Source of the DNA: Thermoactinospora rubra
GTDB taxonomy: Bacteria > Actinomycetota > Actinomycetes > Streptosporangiales > Streptosporangiaceae
Assembly (NCBI RefSeq): GCF_002093975.1
Contig: NZ_MSZZ01000024.1
Coordinates: forward strand, 1 to 64,000
Length of the DNA: 64,000 nucleotides
Direction of reading: 5' to 3'
The position numbers and the translations under genes are program-made. The notes under the pieces were generated by a model. That model was not told the origin of the DNA. It saw only the letters and a program-made list of their open reading frames with translations, and ran no database searches. Of this stretch, positions 27,841-30,783 are shown in pieces; positions within the stretch are counted from its first letter, which is position 1, and the number at the start of each line of letters is the position of its first letter.

Positions 27841-27909
27841 CACGGACTCGCCAATTACGCTCCGCTGTCTTCTGGTTACATGTCACCCTGTCCTACACAG
27901 GAGGGGCCC

Positions 27910-29301
27910 ATGTCGTGGTGGCACAGCGAGCAAGAGGTGGCGGCGCCGGCCGTACCCGCTCCGCGCCCGGGGGAGGAGCCCGAGCTGCTGGTCGCGGCGC
28001 AGCAGGGTGACGCGCAGGCCGCGCACCGGCTCGGCAGGCTCTACGCCGGGCGCGGCGACCGGTCCGCGGCCCGGCACTGGTGGGAGCGGGCGGCGGCGGC
28101 CGGCAACGTCGACAGCGCCTTCAACCTGGGCGTCTGGCACGAGAAGCACGGCACCGTGGACGAGGCCGTGACGTGGTACGAGCTGGCGGCCGGGATGGGC
28201 GACGGCGAGGCGGCGCTGAACCTGGCCACGATCCTGCTGGAACAGCGGGGCGACCTGGCCTCGGCGCGCGGCTGGTACGAGCGGGCCGCGCACGGCGGCT
28301 GCCGCCCGGCCATGCGGCGCCTGGCGCTCATCTGCGAGGACGCCGGCGAGGAGCCGGTCGCCCGCGAGTGGCACCGCCGCGCCGCCACGGCCGGCGACAC
28401 CGACTCCGCCCACGACCTGGGCTTTTTGGCCTACGCGGCGGGCGAGGAGACCGAGACGGTCACGTGGTGGGAGCACGCCGCCCGCGGCGGCCACGCCGAG
28501 GCCGCCTACCACCTCGGGCTGCTGCTGCAGGCCAACCGGGACCCGGAGGGGGCCGAGGCCTACCACCGGCTCGCGGCCAAGAGCGAGCATCCCGGCGCCG
28601 CCTCCCGGCTCGGCGCGCTGGCGCTGTCGCGGCGCGACCTGCGCACGGCGCTGGCCTGGTTCGAGCGGGCGGCGGCGGCCGGGCGGCTGGAGGACCAGCG
28701 CATGGCCGGCTTCGTCTGCGTGGAGCTGAACGACCCGGCGGGTGCGAGCCACTGGTTCGGCAGGGCGGCGGCGGCCGGCGACGCCGAGTCGGCCTTCAAC
28801 TTCGGGCTGCTGCTCATCGCCGAGAACGGCGACATCGCGGGCGGCCAGCACTGGTTCCGCCAGGCCGCGCTGGCCGGCCACCACCGGGCGGCCCTGGAGC
28901 TGGGCGGCCTGCTGTCGGCCACCGGGCAGGCCGGCGAGGCCCAGCGGTGGCTGTCCGACCCGCCCCCGCCGTCCTGGAACCGGATGGTGGAGCCGGAGCT
29001 GACCGCGCGGGCCGAGCTGGCCGCGGCGGCCACCGGCAGGCGCGGCGACGTGCCGCTGCGGGTCGGCGACCTGACCGAGATCCTCGGCACGTGGGACCTG
29101 GTGACGCGACCCCTGCGCGACCACGGCGACGCGGTGGCCTGGCTGGCCGAGCGCAGCGGGCTGCACGCCACCGCGATCGAGCACCTGGCCTCGGTGCGCT
29201 CCACGCTGCTGCGTCCCGGCTCGGCGCCGTGGCCCGGCCACGGCGAGGTCGAGCGCGTGCTGGCGACCGTGAGGATGCTGCGGCTAGTCCTTCTGGCCTA
29301 G
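27910..29301 (+). CDS. Sel1-like/TPR repeat protein
   Basis: A 463-aa soluble protein made of about ten helical repeats of roughly 35 residues with the Sel1 pattern (for example SAFNLGVWHE, AAYHLGLLLQ, SAFNFGLLLI). Trp-rich helix ends (RHWWERAAAAG, SHWFGRAAAAG) recur. Sel1 proteins act as scaffolds for protein complexes. ATG 27910 follows AGGAGGGG by 4 nt. The last about 90 residues depart from the repeat pattern and form a separate C-terminal region. Confidence 0.88.
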   Translation: MSWWHSEQEVAAPAVPAPRPGEEPELLVAAQQGDAQAAHRLGRLYAGRGDRSAARHWWERAAAAGNVDSAFNLGVWHEKHGTVDEAVTWYELAAGMGDGEAALNLATILLEQRGDLASARGWYERAAHGGCRPAMRRLALICEDAGEEPVAREWHRRAATAGDTDSAHDLGFLAYAAGEETETVTWWEHAARGGHAEAAYHLGLLLQANRDPEGAEAYHRLAAKSEHPGAASRLGALALSRRDLRTALAWFERAAAAGRLEDQRMAGFVCVELNDPAGASHWFGRAAAAGDAESAFNFGLLLIAENGDIAGGQHWFRQAALAGHHRAALELGGLLSATGQAGEAQRWLSDPPPPSWNRMVEPELTARAELAAAATGRRGDVPLRVGDLTEILGTWDLVTRPLRDHGDAVAWLAERSGLHATAIEHLASVRSTLLRPGSAPWPGHGEVERVLATVRMLRLVLLA

Positions 29302-29394
29302 GTGGAACAGGTGGCCCTCGTCGTCCTTGAACACCGCCGACCAGCCGCACACCGATACGAGAACCGTCGTTTCACCGGCAGAGCAATACAGAAT
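29284..29394 (-). CDS. Candidate small or truncated ORF, unusual start
   Basis: The minus strand between an in-frame stop (upstream) and TAG at 29286-29284 encodes about 36 codons that look protein-like, including VSVCGWSAVF and DDEGHLFHLG. No ATG or GTG lies near its beginning; ATT 29394 or CTG 29391 would have to serve. It may be a genuine small protein, or the 3' end of a gene cut off by the mobile-element remnant next to it. It overlaps the Sel1 gene tail by 18 bp. Confidence 0.35.
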   Translation of the reverse strand: MLYCSAGETTVLVSVCGWSAVFKDDEGHLFHLGQKD

Positions 29395-29419
29395 GCGGTA
29401 GTGTCGTCACCGTCAGGTA

Positions 29420-29577
29420 CCGCTGGGCGGGCGGGAACGGGGCCGCAAGGCTCGAAAGCCTGTGGAGACCCGGTAAGGCCACCTCGGTGGCATAGGTCGG
29501 TGAAGCAGGAAGCCGCGGAAGTGCCGTCGACGCGGTACAAGCCGAATCTTCGGCGTGAACGCCGAAGGGCGCGTCAA
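29420..29577 (+). mobile_element. IS200/IS605-type tnpB 3'-end remnant with omega-RNA-like scaffold
   Basis: This gene-free stretch resembles the conserved 3' end of actinobacterial tnpB elements. One frame reads SKACGDPVRPP then SVKQEAAEVP, like TnpB C-terminal tails. The RNA would fold GCCACC-TC-GGTGGC, then the terminal hairpin TTCGGCG-TGAA-CGCCGAA (29549-29566) followed by GGGCGCGTCAA, the position where omega-RNA scaffolds end (family form ...GGATGTCAA). Bases from 29578 would then be the guide. No transposase body is present. The assignment rests on recalled family patterns. Confidence 0.55.
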
Positions 29578-29632
29578 TACCGGCTGACCCCGCTCGGGCA
29601 GCCCGGTGCTCACCCTGCTGGGGATATGCAAG

Positions 29633-29655
29633 GGGGTACGGCCCGGCCGTACCCC
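29633..29655. terminator. Strong hairpin terminator (bidirectional)
   Basis: GGGGTACGG (29633-29641) pairs perfectly with CCGTACCCC (29647-29655) around CCCGG; TTTCT follows on the plus strand. It sits 18 bp past the end of the minus-strand ald gene, so it may also terminate that operon. Between 29578 and this hairpin I see no gene. Confidence 0.8.
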
Positions 29656-29673
29656 TTTCTGCGAAAAGAGACG

Positions 29674-30783
29674 TCAGAGCACGTCGGACACCGGCGTGTA
29701 CGGCAGGCCGAGCGCCTGCGCCACCGGCTCGTTGGTGATCAGCCCGTCGTGCGTGTTGAGGCCCGGCGCCAGGGCGGCGTCGGCCCTGAGCGCCTCCCGC
29801 CAGCCCAGGTCGGCCAGCCGCACCGCGTAGGGCAGCGTCGCGTTGGTCAGCGCGTAGGTCGAGGTGTTGGCCACCGAGCCCGGCATGTTCGCCACGCAGT
29901 AGAAGATCGACTCGTGGACCTTGTAGGTCGGGTCCGCGTGCGTGGTCGGCCGGGAGTCCTCGAAGCAGCCGCCCTGGTCGATGGCGATGTCGACGAGCAC
30001 CGAGCCCGGCTTCATGCGCGAGACCAGGTCGTTGGAGACCAGCGTCGGGGCCTTGGCGCCGGGGATGAGCACCGCGCCGATGACCAGGTCCGCCTGGAGC
30101 ACCTCGCGCTCGATCGCGTAGGAGGTCGACACCAGCGTCTTGAGCCGCCCCTGGTAGATCGCGTCGATGTGGCGCAGGCGGTCGATGTTGGTGTCGAGCA
30201 CGGTGACGTCCGCGCCCATGCCGACCGCGATCTGCGCGGCGTTGAGGCCCGACACGCCGCCGCCGATGACCACGACCTTGGCCGGGGCCACGCCGGGCAC
30301 GCCGCCGGGCAGCACGCCGCGGCCGCCGTTGAAGCGCATGAGGTTGTAGGCGCCGACCTGCGGGGCGAGGCGGCCCGCGACCTCCGACATGGGCGCGAGC
30401 AGCGGCAGCGCGTTGCCGACCTGGACGGTCTCGTAGGCGATGGCGGTGACCTTGTTGCGCAGCAGCGCCTCGGCGCACTCCCTGCCCGCCGCGAGGTGGA
30501 GGTAGGTGAACAGCACCTGGCCCTCCCGCATGCGGTGGAACTCCTCGGCGATGGGCTCCTTGACCTTGAGGATCATCTCCGCCTCGCCCCACACGGCGTC
30601 GGCGCTGTCGACGATCTTGGCGCCGGCGGCGAGGTACTCCTCGTCCGTGATGTGCGAGCCGAGACCGGCGCCCCGCTGGACGAACACCTCGTGGCCGTGC
30701 CGTGCCAGCTCGTGGACGCCCGCGGGGGTGGCGGCCACCCGGTACTCGTGGTTCTTGACCTCGGCGGGGACGCCGATCTTCAT
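29674..30783 (-). CDS. ald: Alanine dehydrogenase
   Basis: NAD-dependent L-alanine dehydrogenase of 369 aa, the usual length. It interconverts alanine with pyruvate and ammonia. Conserved blocks include the N-terminal EYRVAATPAG, LKVKEP with the substrate Lys, TYLHLAAG with the catalytic His, and the NAD site VIGGGVSGLNAA. The C-terminal NTHDGLITNEPVA is typical. ATG 30783. It follows the aminotransferase by 55 bp; together they could run transamination with pyruvate and recycle alanine. Confidence 0.97.
   Translation of the reverse strand: MKIGVPAEVKNHEYRVAATPAGVHELARHGHEVFVQRGAGLGSHITDEEYLAAGAKIVDSADAVWGEAEMILKVKEPIAEEFHRMREGQVLFTYLHLAAGRECAEALLRNKVTAIAYETVQVGNALPLLAPMSEVAGRLAPQVGAYNLMRFNGGRGVLPGGVPGVAPAKVVVIGGGVSGLNAAQIAVGMGADVTVLDTNIDRLRHIDAIYQGRLKTLVSTSYAIEREVLQADLVIGAVLIPGAKAPTLVSNDLVSRMKPGSVLVDIAIDQGGCFEDSRPTTHADPTYKVHESIFYCVANMPGSVANTSTYALTNATLPYAVRLADLGWREALRADAALAPGLNTHDGLITNEPVAQALGLPYTPVSDVL

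Follow-up and report, generated by a model that had tools for sequence, protein, structure and literature searches.

A tnpB-less family of IS605-like mini-elements with an omega-RNA-like scaffold in Thermoactinospora rubra and related genera

A 167-base omega-RNA-like scaffold in Thermoactinospora rubra (window positions 29411–29577, + strand) is one of at least 29 orphan copies, distributed over 17 genomes and 10 genera, that lack tnpB. On the evidence of sequence comparison, the orphans are one single-origin family of tnpB-less mini-transposons across these 10 genera. The copy described here is probably an immobilised, stranded member of a non-autonomous, PATE-like IS200/IS605 mini-element, whose only gene would be its omega-RNA and which would be served in trans by TnpA and TnpB. 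The window is the whole stretch of DNA that was analysed, 64,000 nucleotides (G000:C14:1-64000) of the 8.2-Mb T. rubra assembly, referred to below as the own genome (G000). A preliminary description of the locus had read it as a stray tnpB 3' end, omega-RNA-like but without tnpB or tnpA. Its omega-RNA-like character was upheld and no TnpB frame was found there, but rather than being what is left of one lost tnpB in this genome alone, the locus is a member of the single-origin family.

The scaffold runs from CGTCAGG to GCGTCAA and was delimited with a covariance model (R1), a 29-copy alignment (A2) and covariation. It lies between a Sel1/TPR-repeat gene (27880–29301, + strand) and the alanine dehydrogenase gene ald (29674–30783, − strand). 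A blast search identified three further copies in the own genome with 81–86% identity (E down to 4.9e-49), starting at window positions 29411–29416 and losing similarity at 29577, 29578 and 29581. The preliminary description was therefore right about the place but not about the left edge, which it had set at 29420 where the RNA starts at 29411. The right end of the element, GTCAA (29573–29577, +), is supported because own-genome similarity stops there, the aligned copies end at GTCAA and the empty-site junction of copy L276 falls at the same point. The previously proposed GCGTCAA boundary, ending at 29577, is borne out by the copy ends and by this empty site, and the proposed guide start at 29578 follows directly after it. 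Weaker own-genome blast matches cover the final 76–80 bases and lie beside tnpB genes. The TnpB-like C-terminal tail noted earlier holds as nucleotide-level homology to the tnpB 3' end; as a protein tail it does not, and the surroundings of the window copy showed no TnpB frame. No Rfam family matched the stretch, either at the gathering score or at E values up to 10. A covariance link to tnpB 3' regions emerged from the orphan-built model, whose matches to them score as high as 124 bits.

The scaffold unit recurs in five other genomes when 98 genomes, own included, are searched. Ten copies served to build the covariance model R1, with which 54 genus genomes, the own one among them, were then scanned ('genus' and 'family' denote genome sets as grouped by the search tool). 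The ten copies scored 175–198 bits, as expected for the model's own members, and the next match scored 124 bits; the window copy, among the ten used for building, scored 180.3 bits. None of the ten overlapped a TnpB frame, and all 23 of the lower matches that were sampled, out of well over 100 listed, did so. In a set of 24 lower-scoring genus loci, partly the same places as the 23, a TnpB frame was present at 22 and absent at two (L127 and L128). Run over 150 family genomes, R1 gave matches at E ≤ 1e-20 in 23 genomes, with 51 places listed. Of these, 43 were classified: 24 as orphans, six of which the genus scan had already contributed, and 19 as tnpB-linked RNAs, namely 14 that joined the comparators below, four that were already among the 23 genus matches and the RNA at G000:C13. 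The 29 orphans thus consist of 10 from the genus, 18 more from the family set and L276; partial matches at G245:C3 and G237:C3 and eight family places stand outside the orphan and tnpB-linked counts. The comparators were 37 tnpB-linked RNAs (23 genus, 14 family) taken from the lower R1 matches. None of the 29 orphans overlapped a tnpB, whereas each of the 37 relatives sampled from outside the family did. Scores alone do not split the two classes, as orphan L252, at 113 bits, falls below the best tnpB-linked RNA of the family set (120 bits). The orphans were collected with an orphan-built RNA model, which favours orphan-like, intact RNAs over intact left ends. Lower R1 matches also occurred in all six genus genomes with orphans, a co-occurrence that says little since 37 of the 54 genus genomes have some R1 match. 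Plasmid and phage records yielded one match each, covering 29% of the query.

In a tree of the 29 orphans and 37 tnpB-linked RNAs, the orphans formed an exclusive split with a local support of 0.94. Columns mostly gapped in either class were dropped from this tree, which removed the orphan-specific insertion with its extra stem. Ordinary decay also yields orphans, as L127 and L128 lack an intact tnpB. L127 (G019:C27:536908-537116) is a 209-nt RNA variant with no tnpB match and L128 (G012:C35:9879-10042) keeps a 29-residue TnpB fragment; both fall outside the orphan family. Regulators of the TldR type consist of a nuclease-dead TnpB relative beside a guide RNA. Such an arrangement was rejected, as tblastn found no TnpB match around 28 of the 29 orphans, with at least about 1.4 kb searched to either side. 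It was also rejected for L094 (G000:C35). This orphan has a tnpB frame of another type some 230 bp upstream, but that tnpB has its own, different right end, ACGTCAA.

Folding of the 29 aligned orphans with RNAalifold gave a consensus of 48 pairs, 21 of them with two-sided changes, and 97.3% of the alignment cells pair. Shuffled alignments gave 8.3 ± 1.8 two-sided pairs and never reached 21 in 500 trials, although the consensus was derived from the same sequences as were tested, and relatedness among them, including three near-identical copies in G229, inflates such shuffle tests. Slid versions of the structure gave 3–10. All 48 consensus pairs are formed in the window copy, which is 74–87% identical to the other orphans. 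The fold of the single sequence does not stand out (z −1.23, with 28 of 200 shuffles folding as well); the evidence for an RNA is comparative.

The covarying pairs are spread over several helices. The internal hairpin GTGCCGT/GCGGTAC (helix 10; 29521–29538, +) has two-sided changes in five of its seven pairs. The CCACC/GGTGG stem, which had been recognized at the outset, is present (helix 8; 29479–29490, +, with 29479–29483 pairing to 29486–29490) and shows such changes in two of five pairs. The terminal hairpin named in the preliminary description was likewise confirmed as TCTTCGGCG/CGCCGAAGG, in which 29547–29555 pair with 29560–29568 (helix 11; 29547–29568, +; seven of nine pairs two-sided). 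This hairpin is both an RNA stem and the expected right-end palindrome of TnpA, and it is present in the orphan consensus; its covariation may reflect DNA recognition by TnpA. Internal helices are not expected to matter for transposase recognition. In the five internal helices, 12 of 26 pairs changed on both sides, against 4.7 ± 1.4 in shuffles. Departures from the commonest pair in these helices were G-U in 61 cells versus A-C in 7, the kind of excess that a + strand RNA should show. The 29-copy alignment also shows some 135 nt ahead of the end hairpin to be conserved between genera.

One stem, GGGCC-GCAA-GGCTC (helix 4; 29440–29453, +), was seen only in the orphans. Its loop is of the GNRA type in many copies, three of its five pairs show two-sided changes and 99.3% of its cells are paired. 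The stem was not seen at that place in the compared segments of the 37 tnpB-linked RNAs. Near the same place, L142, L236 and L238 carry different extra segments, and L240 is short. Given the single origin of the orphans, covariation in this stem most simply arose after the loss of tnpB. The exclusive branch, together with a covarying stem unseen in tnpB-linked RNAs, argues that the orphan RNA has been kept for its structure without tnpB.

Just upstream of the RNA, many orphans contain a hexamer that reads like a −10 box. In the window copy it is TAGTGT (29399–29404, +), ending 6 nt before the RNA start. The pattern TANNNT occupies position −11 in 19 of the 29 orphans, the window copy having it at −12, against a background of 13 in 10,875 positions and 0 of 9 left ends of tnpB or tnpA elements. 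It is missing at the expected place in 9 of 29 orphans. The extended form TGnTAnnnT occurs in 11 of 29, and no obvious −35 accompanies the hexamer in the orphans. The hexamer may be inherited, so that common ancestry contributes to its count.

The anatomy of the element is best seen in relatives of the window copy. A complete copy is about 284 bp long. It follows a CTAC target and comprises about 117 bp of IS605-type left-end hairpins with the −10-like TANNNT and then the 167-nt RNA, ending in GTCAA, after which comes the host flank; the 3' hairpin of the RNA doubles as the right end. In L093, a copy in the own genome (G000:C3:132134-132300), 115 bp separate CTAC from the RNA, and this segment has matches in the left ends both of tnpB elements and of a Y1 TnpA element. 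Judged by the reach of similarity, the left end is complete in 13 of 29 copies (L276 being counted by its empty site, and L230 and L232 on short matches), partial in 10 and without a blast match in six: the window copy, L092, L094, L101, L249 and L231. When these were aligned to other left ends and compared with shuffles, L101 showed a clear resemblance (0 of 500), the window copy (p = 0.02) and L092 (p = 0.04) weak ones, and L094, L249 and L231 none.

The empty site of L276 is the clearest proof of mobility. Here 284 bp are inserted after GCTAC; of the 11 relatives tested, 10 align without interruption across the junction that forms when the two flanks are joined. The insertion is clean, with no target duplication, as is characteristic of IS200/IS605 elements, in this one copy. 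In L297, a relative with an uninterrupted L276 site, the site lies within an intact methyltransferase-family gene. A MITE with terminal inverted repeats was ruled out by the same junction, in which no target duplication is present. In G229, two copies match a third at 98% and 99% identity across 288–289 bp including GCTAC, and their flanks differ. The family thus has the features of PATEs, namely IS605 ends, no protein gene and multiple mobile copies (the three near-identical ones in G229). It also has those of an omega-RNA, with homology and structure in common with tnpB 3' ends and a boundary at the element end followed by the flank. A search for the empty site of L246 found the left flank, with the right flank not in place. 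The sites of L097 and L093 in relatives were not clean; both flanks were found, but host sequence is missing beside the copies, 84 bp at L097 and about 265 bp at L093. These host losses at L097 (G006:C1:4061317-4061486) and L093 are flush with the element, in contrast to the clean L276, and are unexplained.

To the left of the window copy lies a 58-bp 3' remnant of a glyoxalase-family gene (29293–29350, − strand; PF00903 in the gene of relatives, L041), the rest of the gene being lost. In several relatives, the glyoxalase-family gene sits between the Sel1/TPR gene and ald, and matches to the named relatives bearing it end at window positions 29349–29353. A possible decayed left-end remnant (29355–29410, +) has no blast match; its alignment to other left ends beats shuffles at the weak level given above. 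The orthologous site was found with the neighbouring protein at 46 loci, most of them in Nonomuraea, and 43 contain both flanks (L167, L193 and L197 lack the right flank). A search of these 46 loci with R1 found no orphan at the orthologous place; weak matches in L160 (26.4 bits) and L187 (20.8 bits) both lie upstream of the TPR gene. In view of the gene remnant and the lack of an orthologous orphan, the simplest account of the window copy is an insertion specific to this lineage, with sequence lost on the left. With its left end decayed or lost, it is probably immobile by its own ends. Its RNA is intact in sequence and may still be able to load TnpB.

The predicted guide of the window copy is the host flank at 29578–29597 (+), directly after the right end. 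Each of the 29 copies has a different sequence in the 16 bases that follow its right end. Searched against the own genome, the first 16 bases of the window guide, for which the preliminary description had suggested a search for matches, have one exact site, which is the guide itself. At up to two mismatches there are 50 sites versus 38 for a reversed control, a small excess, and CTAC precedes none of the four sites with one mismatch. A strong inverted repeat with 14-nt arms (29630–29658) lies between the predicted guide and ald. It is perhaps the terminator of ald and could also end transcripts leaving the orphan RNA.

Several other explanations have to be weighed against an omega-RNA mini-element served in trans. 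The site could once have held a full tnpB element of which, after deletion of the body, a neutral fossil persists. Such fossils do occur, as L128 demonstrates, and both the missing left-end blast match and the truncated adjoining gene would fit one, but the 48 intact pairs of the window copy do not. Moreover, 28 other copies likewise lack tnpB, and they have a single origin and derived features in common. These sister copies largely refute a simple fossil, and this origin is highly improbable. The complete ends and clean insertion of orphan copies also agree with an ends-only IS605 derivative moved by a borrowed TnpA. Its RNA part would then be right-end DNA that is carried along without functioning as RNA. 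PATEs made of fused IS605 ends have been described (PMC3119063; PMC7290912). Against such a derivative stand the covariation of the internal helices, which should not matter to transposase recognition, and that of the orphan-only stem. The asymmetry between G-U and A-C in the internal helices and the conservation between genera of about 135 nt upstream of the end hairpin count against it as well. We regard it as unlikely.

A role as RNA decoy or regulator appears quite unlikely. The orphan RNA would then load TnpB and divert it, damping autonomous elements, or direct it to host sites, rather than aid persistence of the mini-element. An orphan RNA without a nuclease but with its own promoter-like motif, many TnpBs in the same genome, and an intact RNA without a recognizable left end in the window copy would all suit such a role. 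On the other hand, the bases past the right end, different in 29 of 29 copies, indicate no common target, and near-target sites of the window guide are hardly in excess. Also, no orphan occupies the orthologous site at the relatives' loci, 43 of 46 having both flanks, so that a host benefit is not visible at this site.

The preferred reading, a mini-element with its own omega-RNA and borrowed proteins, would work as follows. Transcription would start near CGTCAGG from the element's own putative promoter and run into the flank, and by this read-through each insertion would gain a guide. TnpB made elsewhere, by resident elements, would bind the orphan RNA, and TnpA made elsewhere would move the mini-element. 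Cutting of vacated sites by TnpB would then help to retain it. A broader proposal, whose chances we judge to be evenly balanced, is that of guide-RNA-only transposons. Elements of about 284 bp would have kept, promoted and remodelled their own omega-RNA, so that every insertion would direct a TnpB borrowed from elsewhere to the empty site of that insertion. As hyperparasites of TnpA/TnpB elements they would be diversifying across a bacterial family, and their stranded copies would still supply guides in trans.

TnpB is considered the ancestor of Cas12. To our knowledge, how guide RNAs became encoded apart from their nuclease, as in CRISPR, is an open question. If the preferred reading is true, a lineage with its own promoter-like motif, a lost nuclease gene and a still evolving fold would be a direct example of the separation of guide and nuclease. 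It would also offer a clean test of whether RNA-guided homing aids the persistence of even a minimal element. Omega-RNAs away from their nuclease are reportedly discussed by Altae-Tran in 2021 and by Meers in 2023.

The closest known systems are PATEs and the omega-RNAs of IS200/IS605 elements. PATEs of Haloquadratum and Halanaerobium are transposase-free, have IS605-type ends and are thought to be mobilized in trans, and a Halanaerobium PATE keeps the last 58 nt of tnpB and the whole right end (PMC3119063; PMC7290912). The orphans are like them in lacking a transposase gene, in their IS605-type ends and in their presumed movement in trans. In these accounts, however, PATEs are treated as fused ends or non-coding, whereas the orphans are a genus-crossing, single-origin family with a covarying omega-RNA, an orphan-only stem and a promoter-like motif. 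For ISDra2 TnpB, a right-end RNA with a flank-derived guide has been described, and cutting of the vacated site was proposed to restore the element (PMC8612924). TnpB can also process its own mRNA (PMC10278001). The omega-RNA or reRNA of IS200/IS605 elements resembles that of the orphans in coming from the tnpB 3' end and right end, in taking its guide from the host flank and in a target motif identical to the insertion motif. In contrast, the former comes from the tnpB transcript in cis, and the orphan RNA has no tnpB and is preceded by a separate promoter-like motif. A literature search of titles and the openings of abstracts, mostly confined to papers outside subscription and with the Greek-letter form of omega-RNA not searchable, found no conserved omega-RNA element family without tnpB. 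Similarly, a search of PMC12558985 and PMC10711439 found no relevant passage on such elements. PATEs themselves are known; the apparent novelty is a PATE-like family that is monophyletic, crosses genera and has an RNA still evolving as RNA.

Candidate partners are present in the own genome, in line with the service in trans that had been suggested at the outset. It contains 27 TnpB zinc-ribbon domain matches and five Y1 transposases, some with a related RNA or left end. With these numbers, many of its TnpBs may need TnpA in trans or be immobile. A tnpB of similar scaffold, the search for which had been proposed earlier, was found, as TnpB-linked RNAs in this genome match R1 at 92–103 bits. The TnpB frame of L066 (C13) has HTH, OrfB_IS605 and TNB domains and a linked RNA of 102.6 bits, and that of L067 (C3) is without an HTH match and has a linked RNA of 92.4 bits. 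Compatibility of the orphan RNA with these TnpBs is uncertain, since the nearest tnpB-linked RNA of the own genome scores 102.6 bits versus 180.3 for the window copy. The own genome also has a Y1 TnpA with a left end like that of the orphans. At L089 (G000:C49:32214-35579), a Y1 TnpA frame runs toward the common left end, and the other strand carries a 142-codon frame with only the N-terminal HTH domain of TnpB. From these two frames, L089 appears to be an IS605 element whose tnpB is truncated.
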